Source: Deltaproteobacteria bacterium
GTDB taxonomy: Bacteria; Myxococcota_A; Polyangia; Polyangiales; JADJMO01
Assembly: GCA_025363655.1 (NCBI GenBank)
Contig: JANYDK010000057.1
Location: forward strand, 1 to 42,610
Direction: 5' to 3'
DNA: 42,610 bases
Part shown: in pieces, positions 26,870 to 40,644 of the stretch
Layout of the letters: each line of letters begins with the position of its first letter
Position numbering within the stretch: the first letter of the stretch is position 1
Made by a program: the position numbers and the translations under genes
Notes under the pieces: model-generated
What the model saw: only the letters and a program-made list of their open reading frames with translations
The model's database searches: none
What the model was told of the DNA's origin: nothing

Positions 26870-27637
26870 TCAGCCGCCGAGGTACGCTTCCTTGACCATC
26901 GGGTCTTCGAGGAGCTCCTTCGCCTTGCCCTCTTTCGCCACCTCGCCGGTGCGCAAGACATAGCCGCGCGCGGCGACCTCGAGCGCGAGGCGCGTGTTCT
27001 GTTCGACGACCAAGACCGTCACGCCGGCCTCGGCGATTTGTCGAATGGCGCCGAAAATCTGACGCGCGAGGTTGGGCGCGATGCCGAGCGAAGGCTCGTC
27101 GAGCAAGAGAAGCGAGGGGCGCGCCATCATTGCCCGACCGATGGCCAGCATCTGCTGCTCTCCGCCGCTGAGCGTGCCGCCCTCTTGTCGCATGCGCTCG
27201 CCGAGCCGCGGAAAGAGCTTCACCACGTCGTCGATGGTCTCGCCGATGATGCGCGCGTCGCGGTGGAGATAGGCGCCGAGCTCGAGGTTCTCGCGCACCG
27301 TCAGGTTGGGAAAGATGGCGCGCCCTTCGGGGACCAGCGAGACGCCGAGCGCGGCGACCTCTTCGGTGCCGAGCGGACCGAGCTCCTGACCGGCGAAGCT
27401 CGCCGTTCCCGCGCTCCACGGTACGAGCCGCACGAGCGAACGCAGCGTCGTCGTCTTGCCTGCCCCGTTGCTGCCGATGAGCGCGACCACCTCGCCCCGA
27501 CGCACGGTGAGCGACACGCCCTTGAGCGCGCGAATGCCGCCGTAGCGCACCTCGATTCCGTGGACGGAGAGCAGCGGCGTCGCCGCGCTCGCGAACGACT
27601 CGGGCGGCTCTGGACGCGTCGGGTGCTTGGTCCTCAC
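26870..27637 (-). CDS. livF: Branched-chain amino acid ABC transporter ATPase LivF
   Basis: The 255-residue ATPase has Walker A GSNGAGKTT, signature LSGGEQQML and Walker B LLLLDEPSLGI. The sequence EGRAIFPNLTVRENLELGAY is typical of LivF. It powers uptake of branched-chain or related amino acids together with LivG. Its GTG start overlaps the livG stop by four bases (GTGA), indicating translational coupling. Confidence 0.93.
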   Translation of the reverse strand: MRTKHPTRPEPPESFASAATPLLSVHGIEVRYGGIRALKGVSLTVRRGEVVALIGSNGAGKTTTLRSLVRLVPWSAGTASFAGQELGPLGTEEVAALGVSLVPEGRAIFPNLTVRENLELGAYLHRDARIIGETIDDVVKLFPRLGERMRQEGGTLSGGEQQMLAIGRAMMARPSLLLLDEPSLGIAPNLARQIFGAIRQIAEAGVTVLVVEQNTRLALEVAARGYVLRTGEVAKEGKAKELLEDPMVKEAYLGG

Positions 27638-28440
27638 GAGACGACCTCGGCGCTCACTTCGGCCTCTTCTTCGCCGAGGTAGGCGGCGATGACCTTGCGA
27701 TCGCGGCGCACTTCTTCGGGCGTCCCTTCGGCGATGGTCTCGCCGTGATCGAGCACGTGGATGCGCTCACAGACGCCCATCACCACCTGCATGTTGTGCT
27801 CGACGAGGATGACGGTCAGCTCGTACTCGTCGCGGAGCGTACGAATCTGCTCTTTCAGCGACTCGGCCTCGCCGTAGTTGAGCCCGGCGGCGGGCTCGTC
27901 GAGGAGGAGGAGCTTCGGCTCGAGCATCAGCGCGCGGGCAATTTCCAGGCGTCTCTGCGATCCATAAGGAAGTGATGTAGCGGGCGCATCGGCCAGGTTT
28001 TCCAGGCCCATTTCGCCGAGGAGCTTGCGCGCACGGGCCTCGAGGGCCTGCTCGTCGTCGCGCGCCGTCTTGGTGCCGACGATCTCGCTGACGAGGTTCG
28101 CGCGTCGACGGAGCTCACCGGCGACGAGGACGTTGTCGAGCACCGTCATCGAGGCGAAGAGGCGGATGTTCTGGAAGGTGCGGGCGACCCCTGCGGCGGC
28201 GATGGCGGCGGGCGCAAGGCCGACCAGCTCGACGTCCTTGCCCTTGGCGTGAAGTCGAATCGCGCCGACGTCGGCGCGGTAGACGCCGGTCACGAGGTTG
28301 AAGACGGTCGTCTTGCCTGCTCCGTTGGGGCCGATGAGGCCGAAGATCGAGCCTTCGTCGACGGAGAACGAGACGTCGCCGACGGCGCGCAGACCGCCGA
28401 AGCGCTTGTCGACGTGCGAGAGGACGAGCGCGGCGGTCAT
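27634..28440 (-). CDS. livG: Branched-chain amino acid ABC transporter ATPase LivG
   Basis: The 268-residue ATPase has GPNGAGKTT, a LivG-style modified signature LPYGSQRRLEIARAL, Walker B LLLLDEPAAGLN and HNMQVVMGVCERIHVLDHG. VTGVYRADVGAI is typical for the family. Its ATG overlaps the livM stop (ATGA). Confidence 0.94.
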   Translation of the reverse strand: MTAALVLSHVDKRFGGLRAVGDVSFSVDEGSIFGLIGPNGAGKTTVFNLVTGVYRADVGAIRLHAKGKDVELVGLAPAAIAAAGVARTFQNIRLFASMTVLDNVLVAGELRRRANLVSEIVGTKTARDDEQALEARARKLLGEMGLENLADAPATSLPYGSQRRLEIARALMLEPKLLLLDEPAAGLNYGEAESLKEQIRTLRDEYELTVILVEHNMQVVMGVCERIHVLDHGETIAEGTPEEVRRDRKVIAAYLGEEEAEVSAEVVS

Positions 28441-29615
28441 GCTTCGGCCTCTGTCGCGACCGCGGGCTTCGTCGAGGTCGGCGGCTTCGGCCCACCCTTC
28501 GACTTGCGCTCCCAGACCTCACGCTCGCCGAAGAGACCTTCGGGTCGGACGAGCATGACGATGATGAGCGCGGCGGCGAAGAGCGTCATCCGCAGCGCAG
28601 CCGCGTCGATGTCGGCGAAGGCGGAGTAGTTGCGCGAGAGCTGCAACAGGCCCTCTTCGGCGGCGTAGAAGACCGTCGTGTAGAGCACCGCGCCGACGGC
28701 GACGCCGGTGACGCTCCCAGAGCCGCCGAGGATCACCATGGTGATGACCTCGAACGACTTGTCGAACTTCATGTTCGCGGGCGTGACGATGCCTGGTCCG
28801 TCGCGTCGCAAGACGAGGAGCGCACCGGCGATGCCCGCACCGACCGCCGCGAGCACGAAGGCGGTGATCTTGTATTTGGCGGGATCGACGCCGACCGCAG
28901 AGGCCGCGATCTCGTCCTCGCGCACGGCACGAAGCGCGCGACCGAAGCCCGAACGCTTGAGACGATAGGCGAGAAACACCATCAGCGCGGCGAGGCCGAA
29001 GATCCAGAAAGGGCCGGCGACGCTGGGAATTCCGACGAAATCGCCTGGGTCACCGCCTGGCACGCTCGGCCCGCGATAACCGAGCGATCCGCCGAGCGCG
29101 GCGATGCCCTTGGTGATGGGATTCTTCGCGCTGTCGGCGTTGGTGCCGAGGACGGTGAGCCGGAGGATCTCGGAGAAGCCGAGCGTGACGATCGCGAGAT
29201 AGTCGCCGCGTAGTCGCAGGCTCGGCAGACCGACGACGAGCCCGACGAGCGCGCACACCGCGGCGACCGAGAGGACGACGACGGGGAAGATGATCAGCGA
29301 GTGCGTGAGCGAGAGGTTGTCGCGCAGCTCGTCGAGGGGGATCTTCATCAACAGCGCCACGCGGGCGGCGACGAATCCGCCGAGGTACGCCCCGAGACCG
29401 ACGAAGCCGGCGTGGCCGATGGAGAACTGCCCGGCCATCCCGTTGACGATGTTGAGCGCGGTCGCGCCCACCACGTTGATGGCGCACATCACGGCGATGG
29501 TCAGCCAGAATTTGTACCCACGATCGGCGCTGACCGCCGCGTCGTAGGCGAGGTCGAGCCCGACGCAGACGGCCGCTCCGAGGAGCAGGAGGACGAAGGT
29601 GGGGACTCGTCGCAT
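28437..29615 (-). CDS. livM: Branched-chain amino acid ABC transporter permease LivM
   Basis: The 392-residue permease has about ten membrane segments and the LivM phrases GQFSIGHAGFVGLGAYLGG, VTLGFSEILRLTV and AVREDEIAASAVGVDPAKYK. A hydrophilic tail of about 25 residues rich in Lys/Pro/Thr ends it. LivM normally pairs with LivH, which is not in this operon. The gene begins nine bases after the macro-domain gene stops. Confidence 0.93.
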   Translation of the reverse strand: MRRVPTFVLLLLGAAVCVGLDLAYDAAVSADRGYKFWLTIAVMCAINVVGATALNIVNGMAGQFSIGHAGFVGLGAYLGGFVAARVALLMKIPLDELRDNLSLTHSLIIFPVVVLSVAAVCALVGLVVGLPSLRLRGDYLAIVTLGFSEILRLTVLGTNADSAKNPITKGIAALGGSLGYRGPSVPGGDPGDFVGIPSVAGPFWIFGLAALMVFLAYRLKRSGFGRALRAVREDEIAASAVGVDPAKYKITAFVLAAVGAGIAGALLVLRRDGPGIVTPANMKFDKSFEVITMVILGGSGSVTGVAVGAVLYTTVFYAAEEGLLQLSRNYSAFADIDAAALRMTLFAAALIIVMLVRPEGLFGEREVWERKSKGGPKPPTSTKPAVATEAEA

Positions 29616-29624
29616 GGTGGAGCC

Positions 29625-30185
29625 CTAGGCGAGGCGGCCTCGTCCGACGCGTGCGTAGGCTTCGAGAGTGTCTTCGTCGAAGAGAACGAATCGGACCAGC
29701 GCCGGGGCGCCGTGCTCTTTCAGCTCGGCGATCACCGTGTCGAGCGCGATCGCGGCGGCGGCATCGACGGGATAGCCATAGACGCCGGTGGCGATGGAGG
29801 GGAACGCGACCGACGAGAGGCCATGCGCACGCGCCAGCACGAGGGCTTCGCGGTAGCAGCTGGCGAGGAGCTCGGGAGCCTCGGCCTCTTCGCGCGCATA
29901 CATCGGGCCGACGCAGTGAATCACGTGCTTGGCGCGGAGCTGGAATCCCGGGGTGATGACCGCGCCGCCGGTGCGGAGAACGCCGCCCTGCAACGTCTTC
30001 TTCAGCGCGTGACAAGCCTCGAGGAGCTCGGGACCGGCCGCGCGATGAATGGCGCCATCGACCCCTCCGCCGCCGAGCAACATCGTGTTGGCGGCGTTGC
30101 CAATCGCGTCGGTGTCCTGCTGGGTGACGTCGCCGACGACGAGCTCGAGGAAAGAGGCTGCGACCGGCCAGCGGTACGAGGGCAT
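29625..30185 (-). CDS. Macro-domain protein (ADP-ribose-type hydrolase)
   Basis: I chose the ATG at 30185 (MPSYRWPVAASFLELVVGDVTQ); a longer frame to 30272 looks non-coding. The 186-residue protein is a single macro domain with IGNAANTMLLGGGGVDGAIH (residues 28-47) and IATGVYGYP (about 121-129), the ADP-ribose binding loops. It resembles O-acetyl-ADP-ribose deacetylases and mono-ADP-ribosyl hydrolases. It opens the operon that continues with livM, livG and livF, an unexpected partnership. Confidence 0.88.
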   Translation of the reverse strand: MPSYRWPVAASFLELVVGDVTQQDTDAIGNAANTMLLGGGGVDGAIHRAAGPELLEACHALKKTLQGGVLRTGGAVITPGFQLRAKHVIHCVGPMYAREEAEAPELLASCYREALVLARAHGLSSVAFPSIATGVYGYPVDAAAAIALDTVIAELKEHGAPALVRFVLFDEDTLEAYARVGRGRLA

Positions 30186-30318: not shown

Positions 30319-31053
30319 CTACAGCGGCCCTTCGTCGAGCCCGTAGATGAACTGCTTCACCGCAGGATTCGTGCTCGATTTCACCTGTTCGGTCGTCCCG
30401 TCGAAGATGAGGCGGCCCTTGAGGAGCATGCCGACGCGGTCGGTGACGGTGAGGAGACGATCGACGTCGCTCGACACCATGATCACGGTGGCGTTCGACT
30501 GGCGCTGCTCGTCGCGGAGGAGGTTGAAGATTTTTTGCGAGGTCACCGGGTCGAGGCCGGCGGCGGGCTCGTCGTAGAGGACGATGGGGGCGCGGGTGAC
30601 GGTAGCGCGGGCGACGCCGATGCGTTTCTTCTGACCGCCCGAGAGGCCACCGACGGCGCGCTGCTGGAAGCCGGGGAGCGCCATGCGATCGAGGCGCTCG
30701 GCGACGCGCGATTGGATTTCGGCTTCCGGCAAGTCGTAGAGACGACGCAGGGGAAAGGCGATGTTGTCGCCGACTGGCATGTAGTCGAAGAGCGCGTTGT
30801 TCTGGAAGAGCATCCCGAACTTCAGGCGCAGCTTCTGGAGCGCGAGGTCGTCGAGCTTGGTGACGTCTTCGCCTTCGACGAGGATGCGTCCGCGATCGGG
30901 CTTCACGAGGCCGACGATCGATTTGAGGAGCACCGATTTGCCCGACGCGCCGGGGCCGATGAGGCCGTAGAGACAGCCAGCCGGCACGTTCAGCGAGACG
31001 TCGCGCAACACGGGGTGCGCGTAGGCCTTGGAGACGTGATCGAGCTCTATCAC
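30319..31053 (-). CDS. MlaF-like ABC transporter ATPase
   Basis: I place the start at GTG 31053 (VIELDHVSKAYAH), where the domain begins and which follows the upstream stop by four bases; a GTG at 31113 would overlap it. The 244-residue ATPase has Walker A GPGASGKSVLLK, signature LSGGQKKRIGVAR and Walker B IVLYDEPAAGLDPVTSQ. The A-S-G-K variant of Walker A and DPVTS are typical of MlaF ATPases that move phospholipids between membranes. No MlaE permease or MlaD MCE protein is in the window. Confidence 0.86.
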   Translation of the reverse strand: MIELDHVSKAYAHPVLRDVSLNVPAGCLYGLIGPGASGKSVLLKSIVGLVKPDRGRILVEGEDVTKLDDLALQKLRLKFGMLFQNNALFDYMPVGDNIAFPLRRLYDLPEAEIQSRVAERLDRMALPGFQQRAVGGLSGGQKKRIGVARATVTRAPIVLYDEPAAGLDPVTSQKIFNLLRDEQRQSNATVIMVSSDVDRLLTVTDRVGMLLKGRLIFDGTTEQVKSSTNPAVKQFIYGLDEGPL

Positions 31054-31057
31054 CGCA

Positions 31058-31879
31058 TCACCGTGACGCGCTCCGGGCCGGCGCAGGAACCGGCGGCGCA
31101 GCGGCTTCGTCACGCACGCGGCGCAGGCGGGCGAGGAGGACGAGGAGCGCGACGGAGAGCGCCGTGAGGAGGACGAAGACGCCGACGGCGACCGCGCGAA
31201 GGGTGCCGATCGAGCTTCGGGAGACGGCGACGGGGCCGAGGTAGGCGAGGCGCTGCCCGTCGGTGAGCGAGGTCGCGGGCACCGCGATGAGCACCACCGC
31301 GACGTCTTCGACGGCGAGCCCGGAGACGGCGCCGGCGACGAGGCGACGGAGGTCGTCGGGCGGGACGGGAGGCGAAGTGCCGCGGTGGCGAATCAACACC
31401 GAAGCGGTGGCGCGCGGCTTTTTCGAAGCATCGCCGGGAGGTGCGAGGGCCGCAGAGAGCGCGTCGACGACGGGGATGTCGAGGAGCACGCGCGCATCGA
31501 GCACGCCATCGATGGAGCCGAGCACACGTTCGACCTGCGCCGCCGTCCCCGCGATGCGCGCGGCGCGATCGGCCTCTGGAGACGCCACGAGCGACGATTC
31601 TTGGGGCGCCGGCGGGTGCTCTTTCGGGAGCTCTTCGGCGGCGAGGATGCTGATCGCAGCGGTGGCGTCGTCACGCGCGACGATCAGACGAAAGTGCCCT
31701 TCACTCGAGGGATCGGCGGCTTTTTCCGACTCGATGCCCGCGCGCGCGAGGGCGACGACGCCGCGATTGGCCTCCATCTCGTCGAGCCCGCCGGCGACGT
31801 CGCGCATGCAGCCCGCGAGCACGAGGGCTGCCGCGAGCACGATCATCGCACGCGACTTGGACGCCAGAGACCACCCCAT
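31058..31879 (-). CDS. YscJ/SctJ-like inner-membrane ring lipoprotein
   Basis: The ATG at 31879 gives a 273-residue product with a leader ending LVLAGC (Cys24). The ring-building motif RBM1 is seen as MEANRGVVALARAGIESEK with RDDATAAISIL. The second domain shows QVERVLGSIDGVLDARVLLDIP, ASVLIRHR and LRRLVAGAVSGLAVEDVAVVLI. A membrane helix near the C-terminus (VGVFVLLTALSVALLVLLA) completes the YscJ layout. This family builds the inner ring of type III secretion systems. No other T3SS gene is present here, so it is an orphan or a repurposed ring protein. It sits between the pseudokinase fusion and the MlaF-like ATPase. Confidence 0.85.
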   Translation of the reverse strand: MGWSLASKSRAMIVLAAALVLAGCMRDVAGGLDEMEANRGVVALARAGIESEKAADPSSEGHFRLIVARDDATAAISILAAEELPKEHPPAPQESSLVASPEADRAARIAGTAAQVERVLGSIDGVLDARVLLDIPVVDALSAALAPPGDASKKPRATASVLIRHRGTSPPVPPDDLRRLVAGAVSGLAVEDVAVVLIAVPATSLTDGQRLAYLGPVAVSRSSIGTLRAVAVGVFVLLTALSVALLVLLARLRRVRDEAAAPPVPAPARSASR

Positions 31880-31937: not shown

Positions 31938-33512
31938 CTAGTTCGCCTTGAACGTGCGGATACAACCGGTGGCGGCCGGCATGTTGCGGAAGCTGACGCC
32001 GGAGATGGCGCCGCGCATGCACGCCTCGACGCCGGGCTGCGACGGGTTGGTGGTAACGCTGACGCCTTGGACGCGGCCCTTTTGCACCATGAATTTCGCG
32101 GTCGCGGAGCCGTTGAGGCCACAACCCGCGGCGATGCCGCCACCGACGGCGCTGCACTCGGAGATGGAGATGCCTTCGTCCTCGCTGCCGGAGACGCTGT
32201 TCTTGAGCGCATCTTCGTAGCTCTTGCCGCCGCCGCCACCACCGCCGCCACCCGCGCCGCCGGTCCACTTCGGCTTCTGCTTGGCGGCTTCGGCGGCCTT
32301 GATCGAGCCTTCGCCGGCGAGGCTCATCGCTTCGTCGCGCTTGCGCTTCTCTTCATCGTCCTGGCCCGCCTTGATGCGCCAGACGACAACGCCGATGACG
32401 GCGATGACCGCCACGACGAGCGCGATGCCGAGCGTGGCCTTGGTGGCGCCGGCGGCTTTTTCGCTGCGCTCGGCCTGCGCGACCGCCTTCACCTCTTTGA
32501 TGTTCTCGCGCTTCAGCTCGGCGTGGTGCGCGAAGCGGGAGAACTCGGGGTGCTCTTTGAGGGCGGTGCGCTTGTTCGAGTGCGTGTCGACGAGGATGTC
32601 GGTCGGCGTGAAGCGGTTGCTGGCGATCATCTGCAGGAGCTCGATGGCGGCGAAGGGGCCGTGATCCATCTTGTCCTTGACCATCATCCAACGCGGCGCC
32701 GGATCGGCTTCGAGGCGATCTTTGAGGGCATTGAGCTCTTCGGTCGCGCCGCCACCGCCACCGGCGCCCGAGGGCGAGCTGGTGCGCTGCTGCGAGATCG
32801 GCGCGGCGACGACGGCGAACGGATCGTCGAACGCAGCCGAACGCTGGGAGACGGGCGCGGCTGCAGCCGGGGCCATGTCGACCTCGATCGGGATCATCGG
32901 AAGCATCGAGCCGCGCATGTCGACGTCGACGTCGAAGGCGTGATCGTCGGCCATCGGCGGGGGCGCGATGCTCGCCGGCGCGAAGTGGTGAATGGCCTGC
33001 GCGAAGGCGGCGAGATCGTCGGGACGCTGCGCCGCATCGGTGAGGAGTGCCTTCGAGAGAATGGTGTCGACGATCGGCGGGATGCCGGGGAGCACCTGCG
33101 ACGGCGGCTTCATCCCTGGCCCGATGGGCGTGAGGGTGAGCATCTCGTAGACGATGGCGCCGAGGCTGAAGACGCTCGAGCGGGTGGTGGGCGCGCTGCC
33201 CTTTTGCAGCTCGGGGGCGATGGCGGCGAGATCGCGCGCGGCGGTCGGACGCGTTTTGGCGAGCTGCGGAACGAGGCGCGGGACACCATCGGGACCGGCG
33301 CCGATCGACCCGGGGTGGACGAAGACCGCTTCGCCCTTGGCGTGGAGCTGCGCGAGCTCGGTGCAGATGGGGACGACGATGGCGACGACCTCGCCGAGCT
33401 TGAAGCGTTCACCCTTGCTCTGCCGCCCGCTGAGGAGGGTGCGAAGGGTGACGATGCCTTGCGGCGCGGGCGCGGGGTCGAACGGCGGACTGACTGCCAT
33501 GGGGTCGCCCAT
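31938..33512 (-). CDS. Pseudokinase / GYF_2 / transmembrane / AgmX-like fusion protein
   Basis: Start taken at ATG 33512 (33500 is also possible); 524 residues. About 19-178 resemble a Ser/Thr kinase fold. The catalytic HRD is replaced by HPGS (66-69) and no DFG is present, while IAPE (98-101), FSLGAIVYEML and the last lobe persist, so it is a pseudokinase. Then come an Ala/Pro linker, a GYF_2-type domain (about 273-330, WMMVKDKMDHGPFAAIELLQ), one membrane helix (359-380), a Gly-rich stretch, and a C-terminal domain (435-524) like the TonB-type domain of AgmX/PglI gliding proteins with paired cysteines. It would link a cytoplasmic kinase-like sensor to a periplasmic module. Confidence 0.82.
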   Translation of the reverse strand: MGDPMAVSPPFDPAPAPQGIVTLRTLLSGRQSKGERFKLGEVVAIVVPICTELAQLHAKGEAVFVHPGSIGAGPDGVPRLVPQLAKTRPTAARDLAAIAPELQKGSAPTTRSSVFSLGAIVYEMLTLTPIGPGMKPPSQVLPGIPPIVDTILSKALLTDAAQRPDDLAAFAQAIHHFAPASIAPPPMADDHAFDVDVDMRGSMLPMIPIEVDMAPAAAAPVSQRSAAFDDPFAVVAAPISQQRTSSPSGAGGGGGATEELNALKDRLEADPAPRWMMVKDKMDHGPFAAIELLQMIASNRFTPTDILVDTHSNKRTALKEHPEFSRFAHHAELKRENIKEVKAVAQAERSEKAAGATKATLGIALVVAVIAVIGVVVWRIKAGQDDEEKRKRDEAMSLAGEGSIKAAEAAKQKPKWTGGAGGGGGGGGGKSYEDALKNSVSGSEDEGISISECSAVGGGIAAGCGLNGSATAKFMVQKGRVQGVSVTTNPSQPGVEACMRGAISGVSFRNMPAATGCIRTFKAN

Positions 33513-33626
33513 CATACGCGGCGACCGGGCTGCCTCGGTAGCGTCGGCGTGCCTTTTTTGGCGCCCGTCGCGCACGATGGAAGGTTGTAGGGTCGACGGA
33601 GTTTTCGTGGCGGAAGGTGCGTGGTC

Positions 33627-34076
33627 TCAGCCGGCCGCGTGGTTGGCACGCGCGAGGCGCGCATAGGCCTCGGCGAGCACCGTCTCTGCGGCGTCGAGCA
33701 ATTTCTGGTCGCGCGTCCGGGTGAGGATCTGGACGACCTCGGTCTTTTGCGCCGCGGGGTCGTCCATCAGCACGCGAGCAGCGATGCGTACCTCTGCGGG
33801 GATGGTGCTCCCATCGCGGGGGTTCGCCTCGGCCGCGAGCGAGCGCAGGTGATCGACGTAGGTGCGACCGAAGCTCGGGTCGGGCTCAGCGTCGACGTCG
33901 AGCGCGAGCACCGCGTTCCAACCCATACCCGCCGCACGGCGTAGACCGGCGAGCGCAGTGCGCTGGAGGCGGCTGCCGATGCTGTCGCGGGCGAGGCTGA
34001 GCTCACGCATCCCAGCGCGCAGCCACTCGTCGGCGGTGAGACGATGGAGCCAGTGCTTGGGGTCGGCGCCGGGCAT
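33627..34076 (-). CDS. Small helical protein, possibly HEPN-like
   Basis: The ATG at 34076 starts a 149-residue soluble protein; a longer frame would overlap lptB. It is almost all helix: WLRAGMRELSLARDSIGSRLQRTALAGLRRAAGMGWNAVLAL, then a YVDHLRSLA segment and a C-terminal helix. The pattern resembles HEPN-type helical bundles, but the catalytic R-x4-6-H motif is not evident. It is the last gene of the dynamin-lptA-lptB run, 44 bases after lptB. Confidence 0.6.
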   Translation of the reverse strand: MPGADPKHWLHRLTADEWLRAGMRELSLARDSIGSRLQRTALAGLRRAAGMGWNAVLALDVDAEPDPSFGRTYVDHLRSLAAEANPRDGSTIPAEVRIAARVLMDDPAAQKTEVVQILTRTRDQKLLDAAETVLAEAYARLARANHAAG

Positions 34077-34120
34077 CGCGCCACGATGGGCCGAGCCTCT
34101 CGCGCGCATCAACTCCGGCA

Positions 34121-34861
34121 TCAACTCCGTGAACGGCGCGCGGGCGGAACGCTCTCGCCGCTGCGCCAATGACCGAGGTAGCGTCCTTGGGCGGCGGGGT
34201 GCTCGGCGAAATCGGCGGGCGTGCCGCGCATCTCGACGACGCCGTCCATCAGGAGCATGACCTCGTCGGCGATGGCGAGCGACTCGACGACGTGATGGTC
34301 GGCGAGAACGACCGCGACCTCGTCTTCGTCGGCGAGCTCGCGCAGGAGCGTGGCGATGCGCTCGGCGCCCGCCGGGTCGACGCCGGAGAACGGCTCGTCA
34401 CAGACGAGCACGCGCGGACGGGCCGAGAGCGCGCGACAGATCTCGAGCCGTCGTCGTTCGCCGCCCGAGAGGTCGCCGGCGAGCACCCGGTGACGCGCCG
34501 AGAGCTCCATTCGGGCCCCGATTTCCAGCACTTCGCGCGCAGGGCGACCGACGATCGAGGCGTAGGTCTCGAGGTTGTCGCGGACGCTCAAATCGAAGAG
34601 CACGCTCGGCCCTTGCGGTAAGTAGCCGACGCCGCGACGGGCTCTTCGGTAGAGGGGTTCGCCGGTGACGTCGACGCCGTCGACGGTGACGCGACCTCGG
34701 TGCGGTGGCTCTTCGCCGACGACGACGCGGAAGAGCGACGTCTTGCCGGCGCCCGAAGGCCCGAGGACGGCGAGGACGCGCGCGCGTTCGACGACGAGAT
34801 CGACGCCCCGCAAGATGGGCGCGCCGTGGCGGCGGGTCTCGATCCCTTCGGCGCGGAGCAA
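34121..34861 (-). CDS. lptB: LptB-like lipopolysaccharide export ATPase
   Basis: The 246-residue ATPase has Walker A GPSGAGKTS, YRRARRGVGYLPQGPSVLFDLSV typical of LptB, signature LSGGERRRLEI, and Walker B VLVCDEPFSGVDP. It powers extraction of lipopolysaccharide from the inner membrane. It lies 25 bases after lptA. No lptF or lptG permease is in the window. Confidence 0.88.
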   Translation of the reverse strand: MLRAEGIETRRHGAPILRGVDLVVERARVLAVLGPSGAGKTSLFRVVVGEEPPHRGRVTVDGVDVTGEPLYRRARRGVGYLPQGPSVLFDLSVRDNLETYASIVGRPAREVLEIGARMELSARHRVLAGDLSGGERRRLEICRALSARPRVLVCDEPFSGVDPAGAERIATLLRELADEDEVAVVLADHHVVESLAIADEVMLLMDGVVEMRGTPADFAEHPAAQGRYLGHWRSGESVPPARRSRS

Positions 34862-34886
34862 CGCGGCCCTCTCTATTTCTCTGGCT

Positions 34887-35525
34887 CTAAGGCTTCTTCA
34901 GCGCCCCGCCGACGGGGAGCGACGCCTTGACGTTCGTCATGGTGATGCGCGCGGAGTCGAGATCGATCTCGGCGCCGTCGGCGACGACCCAACCATCGCC
35001 GCGGAAGAGACGTACGCCGCCTCGGAGGGAGAGCTTCTGTCGCACGAGATCGAGCTCGAACTCGGGAGCCTCGCCGCGGACGCCTTTGACGTCGGCGAAG
35101 ACGCCGCCCGAGCCCTTCGCCCAGCTGACCCGCGGACCGCCCGCATCGTAACGGACCTCGATTTTAGGGCACTTCAGCGACAGGTCGGTGCCCTTGGCGA
35201 GGACGACGTTGCCGGTGAGGGTCGCCGTCTGCGCTTTGACGTCGACCTCGAGGAGGTCGGCGGAGAGATCGATGTTGCCGGGCGCGCGCGGCGGAAGTTG
35301 GACGTCGATGCCCTTCTTCTTCGGCTCGTTCGTCGAGGTCGTGGCGAGCGCAGTGGGGCTGCCGGCGGCCGTGTGCGTGACGTCCGTGGTGATGGACGTG
35401 GGCACCGCGAGGACGGTCGACGTCGGAGCGCCCGGCGTATCACCACGGCCGAGCGGCAGCGCGAGGAGCGCCGCGCCGGCGAAGGCGACGAGCGGGACGA
35501 GGACGTGCGGGACGCGCATCGGCAT
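34887..35525 (-). CDS. lptA: LptA/OstA-like periplasmic LPS transport protein
   Basis: I chose the ATG at 35525, which follows the upstream stop by seven bases. The 212-residue protein has an N-terminal hydrophobic segment, a Thr/Ala/Pro-rich linker, and then OstA-like beta repeats: IDLSADLLEVDVKAQTATL, TGNVVLAKGTDLSLKCP and a later GWVVADGAEIDLDSARITMT. It would form the bridge that carries LPS across the periplasm, or the related LptC. LptB follows directly. Confidence 0.78.
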   Translation of the reverse strand: MPMRVPHVLVPLVAFAGAALLALPLGRGDTPGAPTSTVLAVPTSITTDVTHTAAGSPTALATTSTNEPKKKGIDVQLPPRAPGNIDLSADLLEVDVKAQTATLTGNVVLAKGTDLSLKCPKIEVRYDAGGPRVSWAKGSGGVFADVKGVRGEAPEFELDLVRQKLSLRGGVRLFRGDGWVVADGAEIDLDSARITMTNVKASLPVGGALKKP

Positions 35526-35532
35526 CTTCGTT

Positions 35533-38217
35533 CTAGCACTGCTCACCGGCGAGCGCCGCGAGGAGCGCGGACAGCTCACGGGCCCGCGCCGGAGCCCCGT
35601 CGACGGCCGTCACTTCCCGCGTCGCTCGGGAACGCAGGCGCTGCGAGAGCACCCCGAGGAGAGCGCGGACGAGCCCGCCTTCGAGATCGCCCGCACGCGG
35701 GACGTCGACCGCCGCGACGCCGCCGGCAGAGAAACCGCGACCGAGCGCGGCGGCGAAGGTCCAGAGCTCGTCGAGCGGGAGCGATCCATCACCCGCCGGC
35801 GCCCCAGTGGCCGAGAGCGCGCTGGCCATCGCGCGCGCGGCGGACGTCTCGACGTGCTCGCCCAGCCGACGCTCGAGGTACGGCGCCATCGAGGGCTCGT
35901 CTTTGGCGAGGAGCTCGTCGCGCTCGCGGCGAAAGGCGTCGATGGCAGCGCGCAGCTCGTCACGCACGGCCCGGCGACCCTCGTCTGCGCGAGCGTCGTC
36001 GCGGGCGGTCGCGGGCAGTTGCGTGCTCCGCGCACGATCGACGTCGAGCGAAATCGCGCGTTCGAGGAGCGTCGCTTGCGCGAGCATGCGAGCACGAAGG
36101 GCGCGATCGTCGTCGCGACGCACCATCGCCGCATCGAGCGCGCGCTGTCCGCCTTGGGCGAGGAGCGTTGCCACGTCGTGCGCACGTCGACGGAGCGCGC
36201 GCTCCTTGAGCACCGGTCCATGCGCCGGCAGCTCGTCTTCGAGCAGCGCGCGGACCGGCACGAAGCCGCTCTCGAGGAGCTTCTGTTCGTCGCCGGCGAT
36301 GCGCGCCTCGACCGCCCGTCGCGCCGAAAAAGCGAGCGGCGGACGGAACGACGAGAGGCCGATCGACTTCGAGTCCTCCGCGAAGACGCTCATCACCTTC
36401 GCGAGATCGGGGCCCGACATCCGATCGGCCTTGTTGAGGAGCGCCTGAATGGGAATGCCGCGCTTGACGATGGCCTCGATGACGCGCCGTTCGCTGGTTT
36501 TCAAGGCCTGTCCGGCGTCGAAGAGCCAAATCGCGAGATCGACGCCGGCGCCCTCGATGAGCGTGTCCATCGCCACCTTGGCGTGCGTCGGATCGGGGGC
36601 GTTGAAGCCGGGCGTGTCGACGAGCTCGACGCGCTGCAAGTATGGAAAAGGCACCTCGACGTCGACGCCGTCGACGGTCCCCTCACCGAGCTCGCCGAGT
36701 AGCGCCTTCAGCCTCTCGGGAGGTACCGTACGCGCGCCGCCGCGGAGCAGACGTGCGCGCGCGATCGGATCGGGGCCGAACCGAAGCGTATGCGCGACCG
36801 CGGTCGTCGGGAGGATGCCGGTGGGCGCGACGTCCATGCCGAGGAGCGCGTTGACGAACGTCGATTTTCCAGCGTTGAACTCGCCGACGATGGCGACGCG
36901 GAGGGGCCGCGCCCGCTCGCTCGCGAGATGTTCGAGACGACGAATGGCGTCGAGATCGCCGAGGGAACGGGCGTGCGAGGCGAGTCTTCCGGTGAGCAAA
37001 TCCCAGCTCGCCGGCTCATCGCGGGGCAAGAGTCGTCCGGCGAGCGCGCGGGTGAGCTCGCCGGCCCACGCGAGCCGCGCCGGATCGACGCTCGCGTTCG
37101 CACCTTCGAGGAGCGCATCGAGCGCCGGTTCGAGCTCGGCGACGCTCTCGGCGTGCACGCCCGTGGCGCCGTCGGCGAGCGCACCGTCGAACGTCAGCAT
37201 GACGTCGACAGGTTCAGGCGTCTCACGCACAGATGCGAGGCAGAGGGCGAGGAGTCGCTCGTCACGAGCCGCGACGGCGAGCCCACGCGCAGCCGCACGA
37301 TCGGCCGTCGTCTCCAATTTCACACCCTTTTCGAGCGCATCGCGGAGAGCGATCGCCGCCGCCTTGGCATCTCCGCGTGCTGAGAGGAGCGCCGCACGCC
37401 AGAGGGGACGATTCTCCAAATCACGCGCGCGTGCCACGGTCTCGACGGCGCGCAGGGTCGCCGGATCGAGCCCCGCCGAACGGGCGACGACCTCGCGCAA
37501 CGCATCGACGGAGCGCTCGTCGCCGAGGATCGCAGCGCGCGAGAGGGATCGTGCTGCCGCAGCGTCGTCGCCGATCAACGTCGCCGCTTCCCCCGCGAGC
37601 CGCTGCCCTTCGGCGTCACCGACCTCCGGCGAAAAGAGCGGGAGAAGACGGGTCACGTCCTCGCGTGAACGACGTTGGAGCGCGCTCGCGAGCCGCCTTC
37701 GCGTCACGTCTTGGAATGGCGCACCTCCGGGTGCAGCATCGTCGAGCCGCGCCAGCCATCCATCGGCGCGCGCCGGGCTCCCCTCTGCCAGCTCCAGATC
37801 GGCGAGCGCGAGTCGCGCTGCGCGGGCTGCAAAACGAGCCTCGACGTCGGGATCGTCGTCCCACGCCACCGCGCGCGTGTACGCCTCACGAACCTCGCGC
37901 GACGAGGCCCCTACCCGCTGCCGCACCCGCCCGAGCCGAATCCACACGTCGGGCGATGCGCCTGCTTTTTTGGCGAGGAATGCCAGCGTCTGTTCGAGCT
38001 CGGCGTCGAGGCCGGCGCCTTCACACGCATCCGCGAGGAGCGCGAGACCGATGGGGGAATTCGGCGCGAGATCGAGGAGGCGACGCGCGGCCGAGCGGGC
38101 GCGGAAGAAATCTCCTTCGGCGAGGGCGCGTTCGGCGAGGACCCGCTCGTCTCGACCACCGACGAGGGAGACTTCGGCATCGGCGAAGAGACGGCGCAGG
38201 TCGGCGAGGAGGGACAT
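35533..38217 (-). CDS. Dynamin-like GTPase with N-terminal TPR-like repeats
   Basis: The 894-residue protein starts with about 430 residues of helical, TPR-like repeats (ALAEGDFFRARSAARRLLDLAP and later units). A dynamin/GBP-type GTPase follows: P-loop GEFNAGKSTFVNALLG (446-460), G3 DTPGFNAP and G4 LNKADRM. The rest is a helical bundle with long charged helices and a C-terminal helix ending in Cys. No membrane segment is visible, so membrane binding would be peripheral. It is the first gene of a minus-strand run with lptA seven bases after its stop, lptB and a helical protein. This order suggests a role in envelope or LPS transport, which is inference. Confidence 0.88.
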   Translation of the reverse strand: MSLLADLRRLFADAEVSLVGGRDERVLAERALAEGDFFRARSAARRLLDLAPNSPIGLALLADACEGAGLDAELEQTLAFLAKKAGASPDVWIRLGRVRQRVGASSREVREAYTRAVAWDDDPDVEARFAARAARLALADLELAEGSPARADGWLARLDDAAPGGAPFQDVTRRRLASALQRRSREDVTRLLPLFSPEVGDAEGQRLAGEAATLIGDDAAAARSLSRAAILGDERSVDALREVVARSAGLDPATLRAVETVARARDLENRPLWRAALLSARGDAKAAAIALRDALEKGVKLETTADRAAARGLAVAARDERLLALCLASVRETPEPVDVMLTFDGALADGATGVHAESVAELEPALDALLEGANASVDPARLAWAGELTRALAGRLLPRDEPASWDLLTGRLASHARSLGDLDAIRRLEHLASERARPLRVAIVGEFNAGKSTFVNALLGMDVAPTGILPTTAVAHTLRFGPDPIARARLLRGGARTVPPERLKALLGELGEGTVDGVDVEVPFPYLQRVELVDTPGFNAPDPTHAKVAMDTLIEGAGVDLAIWLFDAGQALKTSERRVIEAIVKRGIPIQALLNKADRMSGPDLAKVMSVFAEDSKSIGLSSFRPPLAFSARRAVEARIAGDEQKLLESGFVPVRALLEDELPAHGPVLKERALRRRAHDVATLLAQGGQRALDAAMVRRDDDRALRARMLAQATLLERAISLDVDRARSTQLPATARDDARADEGRRAVRDELRAAIDAFRRERDELLAKDEPSMAPYLERRLGEHVETSAARAMASALSATGAPAGDGSLPLDELWTFAAALGRGFSAGGVAAVDVPRAGDLEGGLVRALLGVLSQRLRSRATREVTAVDGAPARARELSALLAALAGEQC

Positions 38218-38313: not shown

Positions 38314-38505
38314 GTCGGTGGCCGGGTAAGCTCGGTCGGTTGCCGGGTAGTCTCGGTCGATTGGCGGGTAACCTCGGGTCGGTTGCCGGGAAGTCTCGCG
38401 TCGGTTCCCGCGTAAGCTCGGTCGGTTGCCGGGTAGTCTCGGGTCGGGTGCCGGGTAAGCTCGGTCGGTTGCCCGGTAACGTCGGGTCGGTTGCCGGGAC
38501 ACTCG
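38314..38505. repeat. Nine-copy tandem array of 21/22-bp units upstream of the dynamin-like gene
   Basis: Units begin at 38314, 38335, 38356, 38378, 38400, 38421, 38443, 38464 and 38486. Their lengths are 21, 21, 22, 22, 21, 22, 21, 22 and 20. Each reads GTCGGTTGCCGGGTA followed by a variable pair and CTCG, with few differences. The spacing is close to two DNA turns, so equivalent bases lie on one face of the helix. GGTTGCCGGGTAACC-like cores are partly palindromic. All three reverse frames are repetitive, so this is not coding. The array ends about 97 bases upstream of the dynamin-like start codon. Confidence 0.9.
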
Positions 38506-39265: not shown

Positions 39266-40644
39266 GCCGAGCATTGCGGCACGAGAAACCGCGGCGATCG
39301 CGACGTAGGAAGCGGTGACGACGATGGTGATGGAACGCGCACGATCGAAGGGCTACCTCGGGGGTTCCTACACCATCCTCGGAGACCCGATCGACCGTGC
39401 GCGCGACCACCTTGCTCAACAACCTCCTCGGCATCAAGCGGACACGAGTCGTCGGTCTCTTCTTCGACGAAGACGGGCTGGTGATCGACGTCCGGCCCAC
39501 GACGCGAGTGGCATGGTGCTCGTGTTGCGGGCGCCGCGTACGCGAGATCCACGACGCGCGCGAGCGCTATTGGCGCCATCTCGACCTGGGCGGCATGAAG
39601 TGGCACTTGCGTTACCGCCTTCGACGCGTGCGATGCGCTCGCTGCGGCGTGACCGTCGAGATGGTGCCGTGGGCGCAACCTGGGTCGTGGTTCACCGACG
39701 CCTTCGAGACGACGGTGGCCTACCTCGCGCAGTCGGCCGCCAAGACCGTGGTCGCGGAGATGATGCGCATCGCGTGGGCGACCGTCGGTTCGATCGTCGC
39801 CCGGGTCGTCGGTCGCCACCGCGGCGAGGATCTGCTCGACGGCCTGACCTTCATCGGTATCGACGAGCTCTCCTACCGGAAGCATCACGAGTACGTGACC
39901 GTCGTCATCGATCACCGGAGGGGCAGGGTCGTCTGGGCCGCGCCCGGGAAGAACGCCGACACCCTCCGACGCTTCTTCGCCGAGCTCGGCCCCGAGCGGT
40001 GCGCGAAGCTCTTGGGGGTGACGATCGACATGTCGGGCGCGTACATCGCCGCGGTGACCGAGGCGGCGCCGCGAGCGAGGCTCACCTTCGATCGTTTCCA
40101 CGTACAGCGGCTCGCGCACGACGCTCTCGACCAGGTCCGTCGTGCCGAAGTGCGTGCGCTCGAGGACCCAGAGGATCGGCGAGCGCTCAAGAACACGCGC
40201 TTCGCGCTGCAGAAGAACCCGTGGAACCTCACCGCCATCGAGAGCGGCAAGCTCGCCGACGTGCAACGCACCAACGCGCCGATCTACCGCGCCTATCTCC
40301 TCAAGGAGACGCTCGCGGCGATCCTCGACCGGCGTCAGCCCAATGTCGCGCGGCGGATGCTCGACGACTGGATTGGCTGGGCCGCCCACTCGAGACTCGC
40401 GCCCTTCGCCAAGCTCGCGAGAACGATACGTGCGCACCTCGAAGGCATCATTGCCTATGTCGCTACTGGCCTGTCCAACGGTCGCACCGAGGGCCTGAAC
40501 GGCAAGGCGCGCACCATCACCCGTCGCTCCTACGGTCTGCACAGCGCCTCGAGCCTCATCGCGATGCTCTTCCTCTGCTGCTCAGGCCTCACGCTGCGCC
40601 CAGCGCACGCCGTGCCGAGCTTCCACTAAACCTCTCGGAGAGCC
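39228..40644 (+). mobile_element. ISL3-family insertion sequence (1417 bp)
   Basis: Both ends are perfect 17-bp inverted repeats: GGCTCTCCGAGAGGTTT at 39228-39244, and its complement AAACCTCTCGGAGAGCC at 40628-40644. Similarity continues inward with two mismatches. The terminal GGCTCT matches ISL3 ends. The single gene inside is the transposase at 39397. The flanking octamers (AATATTCG left, ACTTTATT right) do not match, so no 8-bp target duplication is seen. Both neighbouring genes end inside the repeats. Confidence 0.88.
39397..40629 (+). CDS. tnp: ISL3-family transposase
   Basis: The 410-residue product starts at GTG 39397. A zinc-binding N-terminus (CSCCGRRV ... CARCGV) and helix-turn-helix precede the DDE core: FIGIDELSYRKHH, VTIDMSGAYIAAV and NGRTEGLNGKAR supply the two Asp and the Glu. 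FDRFHVQRLAHDALDQVRR is the ISL3 hallmark. The gene looks intact and runs into the right inverted repeat. Confidence 0.95.
   Translation: MRATTLLNNLLGIKRTRVVGLFFDEDGLVIDVRPTTRVAWCSCCGRRVREIHDARERYWRHLDLGGMKWHLRYRLRRVRCARCGVTVEMVPWAQPGSWFTDAFETTVAYLAQSAAKTVVAEMMRIAWATVGSIVARVVGRHRGEDLLDGLTFIGIDELSYRKHHEYVTVVIDHRRGRVVWAAPGKNADTLRRFFAELGPERCAKLLGVTIDMSGAYIAAVTEAAPRARLTFDRFHVQRLAHDALDQVRRAEVRALEDPEDRRALKNTRFALQKNPWNLTAIESGKLADVQRTNAPIYRAYLLKETLAAILDRRQPNVARRMLDDWIGWAAHSRLAPFAKLARTIRAHLEGIIAYVATGLSNGRTEGLNGKARTITRRSYGLHSASSLIAMLFLCCSGLTLRPAHAVPSFH

Follow-up and report, generated by a model that had tools for sequence, protein, structure and literature searches.

What does a dynamin-type GTPase do at the head of a row of lipopolysaccharide (LPS)-transport genes? 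The question is raised by a 42,610-nucleotide stretch (the window) from a Deltaproteobacteria bacterium of the order Polyangiales, which is the entire contig (JANYDK010000057.1; C115) of a 9.03-Mb genome (G000; 150 contigs, 96% completeness). In the window, a gene for a GTPase with a tetratricopeptide-repeat (TPR)-like region (DYN) precedes genes for LptA-like and LptB-like proteins and for a helical protein. A first-pass annotation, made from the sequence, had suggested that the GTPase may act in envelope biogenesis or LPS export. We find a different account moderately probable: DYN would be a long, TPR-bearing dynamin-like protein (DLP), a cytoplasmic membrane-tethering GTPase that is an old neighbour of the lptAB–rpoN cluster.

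Judged by its motifs and predicted structure, DYN is a dynamin-superfamily GTPase with a helical trunk and an N-terminal TPR solenoid. The fusion of TPR-like repeats to a dynamin-type GTPase, as first annotated, is real, with motifs, an AlphaFold2 (AF2) model and fold comparison in agreement. Dynamin_N matched residues 441–584 above its cut-off (64 bits, E 2e-17), and we located G1 (GEFNAGKS, 445–452), G2 (T471/T472), G3 (DTPG, 534–537) and G4 (NKAD, 595–598), the core residues of which were invariant in 14 homologues and mostly also in an alignment of 52. The AF2 model, built from this 52-sequence alignment (pLDDT 89.7, pTM 0.74), contains long trunk helices that include H652–728, H738–770 and H777–803. 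The N-terminal part aligned with TPR proteins (VIA-align Z ~16; engineered TPR 9qhb, 60 bits). For residues ~400–894, Foldseek and VIA-align returned mycobacterial IniA (Z 23.3 over 305 residues), Fzo1/mitofusin (Fzo1, Z 23.0), Nostoc BDLP1 (BDLP, Z 21.6) and the Cj-DLP pair (Z 21.5), and the alignments to IniA, Fzo1, MFN1 and BDLP extended to residue 891–894. BDLP1 and IniA have the same fold as this part of DYN; their chains align from residue ~400 on, with the TPR solenoid excluded, and their genome context differs. Searching the PDB with a DYN sequence profile gave the Cj-DLP pair as the best match (5owv, E 9e-36), with BDLP at E 1e-24. Hydropathy revealed no transmembrane (TM) segment in DYN (L087). 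We infer that the protein is active on membranes.

Bacterial DLPs are mostly found as operon pairs (PMC6104087). In a tree of 56 DLPs, long TPR-bearing proteins and short proteins split cleanly (support 100/99), and DYN was placed in the long set beside a relative from its own family; this placement, the AF2 model and the PDB comparison together identify DYN as the long partner, with TPR region, of a bacterial dynamin-like pair. At E<=0.001, 70 of the order's 115 genomes had homologues, with long and short paralogues counted together. Other families of the class carry an M48 peptidase gene, a short DLP gene and a long DLP gene in tandem (L058, L060, L062, L069 and L070; also L155). In families f1, to which the source genome belongs, and f2, the short gene stays beside the M48 gene and the long gene lies elsewhere (L195, L196 and L071), and the f1 relatives G237 and G238 encode an extra short DLP adjoining an M48 peptidase gene. 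Cj-DLP1 and Cj-DLP2 of Campylobacter jejuni (5owv, 5oxf; PMC6104087) likewise consist of a GTPase and a helical neck and trunk, and their genes lie side by side, as the long and short genes do in relatives. Unlike the C. jejuni pair, DYN bears a TPR solenoid of ~430 residues; within the order the long and short genes are unlinked, and no short partner was detected in the source genome. We also considered a LeoABC-like or other phage-defence dynamin sitting by chance in a housekeeping cluster, for which PADLOC gave weak matches to LeoA/LeoBC that were stronger for the short partners. On the long protein these matches mainly cover the GTPase part, whereas its inheritance tracks the family groupings, its cluster is a housekeeping one and no defence neighbours were seen. 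With only weak LeoA/LeoBC matches, we rejected a defence role, which we regard as very improbable.

The search for the dynamin covered 235 Myxococcota genomes, the order's 115 genomes and public genomes with names; most were metagenome-assembled, and the neighbourhoods of relatives were compared by BLAST after gene calling with a simple custom script. Five genomes of the set make up f1, and f2 groups with Polyangiaceae (records of Labilithrix, Sorangium, Polyangium and Minicystis). The f2 row usually reads DYN–lptA–lptB–rpoN–hpf–ptsN–hprK–rapZ–HPr–ptsI, with the downstream genes confirmed by Pfam. In 31 public loci, which come partly from the same genomes as the order set, the gene directly after DYN was a co-directional lptA, at a median gap of 42 bp; lptA and lptB overlapped by 4 bp in 15 of these, and lptB was followed by rpoN in 20. 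Because this adjacency recurs at a protein identity to the window of only ~29–62%, the DYN–lptA–lptB order is not due to chance. Comparison across Myxococcota, as the first-pass annotation had advised, yielded an operon-like arrangement conserved over two families, and on the evidence of gene order DYN–lptA–lptB is an old arrangement kept in f1 and Polyangiaceae. In proteobacteria the cluster order is lptC–lptA–lptB–rpoN–hpf–ptsN–rapZ. The Polyangiaceae row from lptA through rpoN, hpf, ptsN and (hprK) to rapZ matches it, except that a dynamin gene precedes lptA; in f1 the cluster is broken after lptB, and rpoN is not next to lptB.

Five further public loci had DYN beside rpoN with no lptAB. 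Because the DYN–rpoN neighbourhood occurs in these loci and in more families (f3, f5 and f6, below), the dynamin could be tied functionally to rpoN–hpf–ptsN, that is, to sigma-54 and the nitrogen phosphotransferase system (PTS), for instance as a stress-induced envelope protein under shared control. We consider this tie unlikely, as rpoN is not beside lptB in f1, the dynamin of Sorangium, Polyangium and Minicystis lies away from rpoN, and DYN–rpoN gaps of up to 159 bp leave room for separate promoters.

The dynamin and the LPS genes come apart in both directions. Of the order's 115 genomes, 28 had LpxC (PF03331), 27 had LptA and 26 had both (Fisher 2e-22), and every genome with either belongs to f1 or f2; LpxB was likewise confined to these two families (29 genomes, two with weak matches). 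By eye, the LpxC of the source genome retains H, HKxxD and a further H downstream at the positions expected. Families f3, f5 and f6, which lack LpxC, LptA and LpxB, nevertheless carry the dynamin directly beside rpoN without lptAB (L046, L047, L049, L056, L052 and L061). The dynamin was also present in four LPS-less f2 genomes (G120, G226, G280 and G309), in one of which (G226) its stop lies 11 bp from rpoN; on gene content, these Polyangiaceae have lost lptAB and LpxC and kept the dynamin. In Sorangium we found the dynamin without lptAB (L142 and L146), and in Sorangium, Polyangium and Minicystis it lies away from lptAB as well as from rpoN. A passage in PMC6372800, citing Keck et al. 2011, describes the outer membrane of Sorangium cellulosum as being without LPS.

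Conversely, the dynamin was directly linked in 17 of the 27 genomes with an LptA match (including G302) and lay elsewhere in six (G286, G296, G305, G306, G307 and G196); the linkage was unresolved or doubtful in three (G236, G300 and G061). The LptA match in the last of these (G061:C535, 30 bits) is itself doubtful, as no LptA gene was called there. The remaining genome, G284, keeps lptAB–rpoN and has no detectable dynamin; its lptA follows, after a gap of ~167 bp, a gene that elsewhere flanks the dynamin (L184), so that this is, as read from the sequence, a clean loss of the dynamin with lptAB–rpoN retained. Genus g185 likewise has lptA without an adjacent dynamin. We also observed that unlinked lptA is preceded by a gene for a 117–137-aa protein of a shared family (L183, L185, L191, L192 and L193), the start of which resembles, by eye, sigma-70 region 1.1.

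Several observations weigh against our reading. Strict long DLPs occurred in 25 of 29 LPS-making genomes and in 22 of 86 others, a comparison that ignores kinship; no second DLP adjoins DYN in the window; and the search of the source genome, from which at its completeness a contig may be missing, gave a single DLP match and no short DLP. Because the second gene is absent from the window and the genome gave a single match, we did not class the window as a side-by-side DLP pair. The enrichment in LPS-making genomes would suit a dedicated LPS-export helper that keeps the inner membrane near the outer one or arranges LptB complexes for the LptA bridge, as would the DYN–lptAB adjacency and operon-like gaps, conserved over large sequence divergence, and the order's reduced-looking Lpt machinery makes a substitute part conceivable. 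Such a helper is decidedly unlikely because losses occur in both directions: the dynamin sits beside rpoN in families without LPS genes and is retained in LPS-less Polyangiaceae, and lptAB (lptA in g185) stands without an adjacent dynamin in G307 and G196 and without any detected dynamin in G284. The first-pass annotation had held that a dynamin unlinked from lptAB in relatives would speak against its proposal, and this is what we found in f3, f5 and f6 and in Sorangium, Polyangium and Minicystis. A role specific to LPS export is therefore not upheld, whereas a broad envelope or membrane role is plausible for any bacterial dynamin. A literature search for a dynamin–lptB link gave nothing relevant. 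The pattern of losses speaks against a tie between the dynamin and LPS export; the protein probably serves membranes in general and does not belong to the export machinery.

The absence of lptF and lptG had also been singled out. It is true of the window and locally ordinary, as lptFG are usually unlinked from lptAB; it is the genome-wide absence that is unusual. PF03739 exceeded its cut-off in none of the 115 genomes of the order, so that no canonical LptF/LptG was found there, 26 of these genomes carrying LpxC and LptA; across the phylum it did so in 76 of 235, two of the same class. We rejected weak PF03739 matches in G000:C112 and G032:C220, which lie within apparent atp and nuo operons, and one in G258, which lies within a 406-aa FtsX/MacB-like permease (L077). 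A profile built on the closest LptF/G proteins (A2), applied only to the top candidates of each genome, identified one 240-aa, six-TM LptF/G-like protein in G006 (23.9 bits; L233:1207–1929, minus strand). Its homologue in G237 (L085:7422–8201, plus strand; 36% identity, phmmer E 3e-9) coincides with an earlier sub-cut-off PF03739 match, and hhalign of the pair against A2 gave a probability of 92.9 over ~99 columns (TM1–3). About 60 residues separate predicted TM3 and TM4 in the G006 protein, a stretch that looks too short for a jelly-roll. These short six-TM proteins are candidates for the missing LPS-export permease of the order. Each of their genes (~240–260 aa) has a divergent small lipoprotein-looking gene upstream. 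The LptD model PF04453 matched none of the 115 genomes, but it is uninformative here, as among the controls it matches E. coli and Caulobacter only. Nothing of relevance turned up in a literature search on LptF in Myxococcota. That LPS-making Polyangiales use a reduced exporter of LptA, LptB and jelly-roll-less short permeases, with a co-transcribed TPR-dynamin tethering the membranes where the bridge is incomplete, is conceivable but very unlikely.

Turning to the window itself, open reading frames (ORFs) together with Pfam and NCBIfam confirmed the annotated four-gene minus-strand row, its gene sizes and its gaps of 7, 25 and 44 bp (Table 1). The LptA-like protein exceeds the PF03968 gathering cut-off (34.2 versus 20.4 bits), is the sole PF03968 match in the source genome and has homologues adjoining DYN in relatives. 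We call it LptA-like, not LptA, because it falls below the cut-off of the NCBIfam equivalog TIGR03002 (32.6 versus 71.7 bits); the LpxC co-occurrence (26 of 27) supports the assignment. LptB-like is named on the same ground: the protein matches ABC_tran (98 bits), and TIGR04406, the best of 181 matching NCBIfam families, scores 175 bits, below the equivalog cut-off of 240; in relatives its gene lies downstream of lptA. No sigma-70-like promoter or terminator was found in the gaps of the row, although for a myxobacterium with GC-rich DNA this evidence is weak. The dynamin is probably co-transcribed with lptA–lptB in LPS-making lineages.

Membership of the helical protein in the dynamin–lptAB operon did not hold. 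Its only homologue (L082:5522–5962, in G238) lies two genes downstream of lptB and is followed by a kinase-remnant-like gene (L082:3894–5417) homologous to the one that follows it in the window, and G237 and G236 have other genes downstream of lptB. By its neighbours, the helical gene belongs with the gene downstream of it and not with lptAB, and is an unstable part of the row. An alternative ATG at 34121 would make it overlap the lptB stop; the 44-bp gap is supported because the G238 homologue begins at an internal MPG.

Table 1. Features of the window around the dynamin gene
Feature	Position	Strand	Basis or remark
Kinase-remnant-like protein	31938..33575	-	Weak kinase/PASTA-kinase matches; accompanies helical gene
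Helical protein	33627..34076	-	149 aa, ATG start; Pfam without match
LptB-like ABC ATPase	34121..34861	-	246 aa, TTG start; ABC_tran
LptA-like periplasmic protein	34887..35525	-	212 aa, ATG start; PF03968
TPR-dynamin GTPase gene (DYN)	35533..38217	-	894 aa, ATG start; ORF, Dynamin_N
DYN neck/trunk long helices, residues 652–894	35536..36264	-	AF2 model; structural alignments
DYN GTPase domain, residues 438–645	36283..36906	-	G1–G4 motifs
DYN TPR-like alpha-solenoid, residues 3–435	36913..38211	-	AF2 helical hairpins; VIA-align to TPR proteins
21-bp tandem repeat, ~8.6 copies	38314..38498		TRF; ~100 bp upstream of DYN start
ISL3 transposase upstream of DYN	39397..40629	+	PF01610, 241 bits

Where the window has the ISL3 transposase, f1 relatives carry a VOC-like gene and metG (gene order in L079 and L083), which marks a local rearrangement in the source genome. 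Elsewhere on the minus strand we noted a YscJ/FliF-family protein (31058–31846; PF01514, 36 bits) adjoining an ABC ATPase gene (30319–31053), and a branched-chain amino acid-type ABC transporter permease, two ATPases and a Macro-domain gene (26870–29615 and 29625–30185). Genes resembling this branched-chain ABC/Macro set lie near lptAB in G238 (L082).

In the account we favour, of a long DLP beside an old cluster, the M48 peptidase, short DLP and long DLP genes that are adjacent in other families of the class are split in Polyangiales, with the long gene often beside rpoN. DYN would hydrolyse GTP on the cytoplasmic side of the inner membrane, its trunk would bind lipid and its TPR part may dock on another protein; together with its short partner it could tether or remodel membrane, as its anatomy and the C. 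jejuni pair (PMC6104087) suggest. In LPS-making lineages the dynamin gene is separated from rpoN by lptA–lptB; LPS-less lineages lack lptAB and keep the dynamin. The neighbourhood would then be an inherited cluster of a membrane protein, LPS transport, sigma-54 and the nitrogen PTS, and it is no proof of a role of the GTPase in LPS export because the dynamin stays where lptAB is absent.

These results define a little-studied TPR-fused DLP branch in Myxococcota, in which the split of a former pair can be traced. LPS-making Polyangiales without recognisable LptF/LptG present a testable gap. As the dynamin and lptAB have each been lost naturally without the other, a strongly conserved operon with LPS-transport genes need not imply a role in LPS, which corrects a conclusion drawn from guilt by association.

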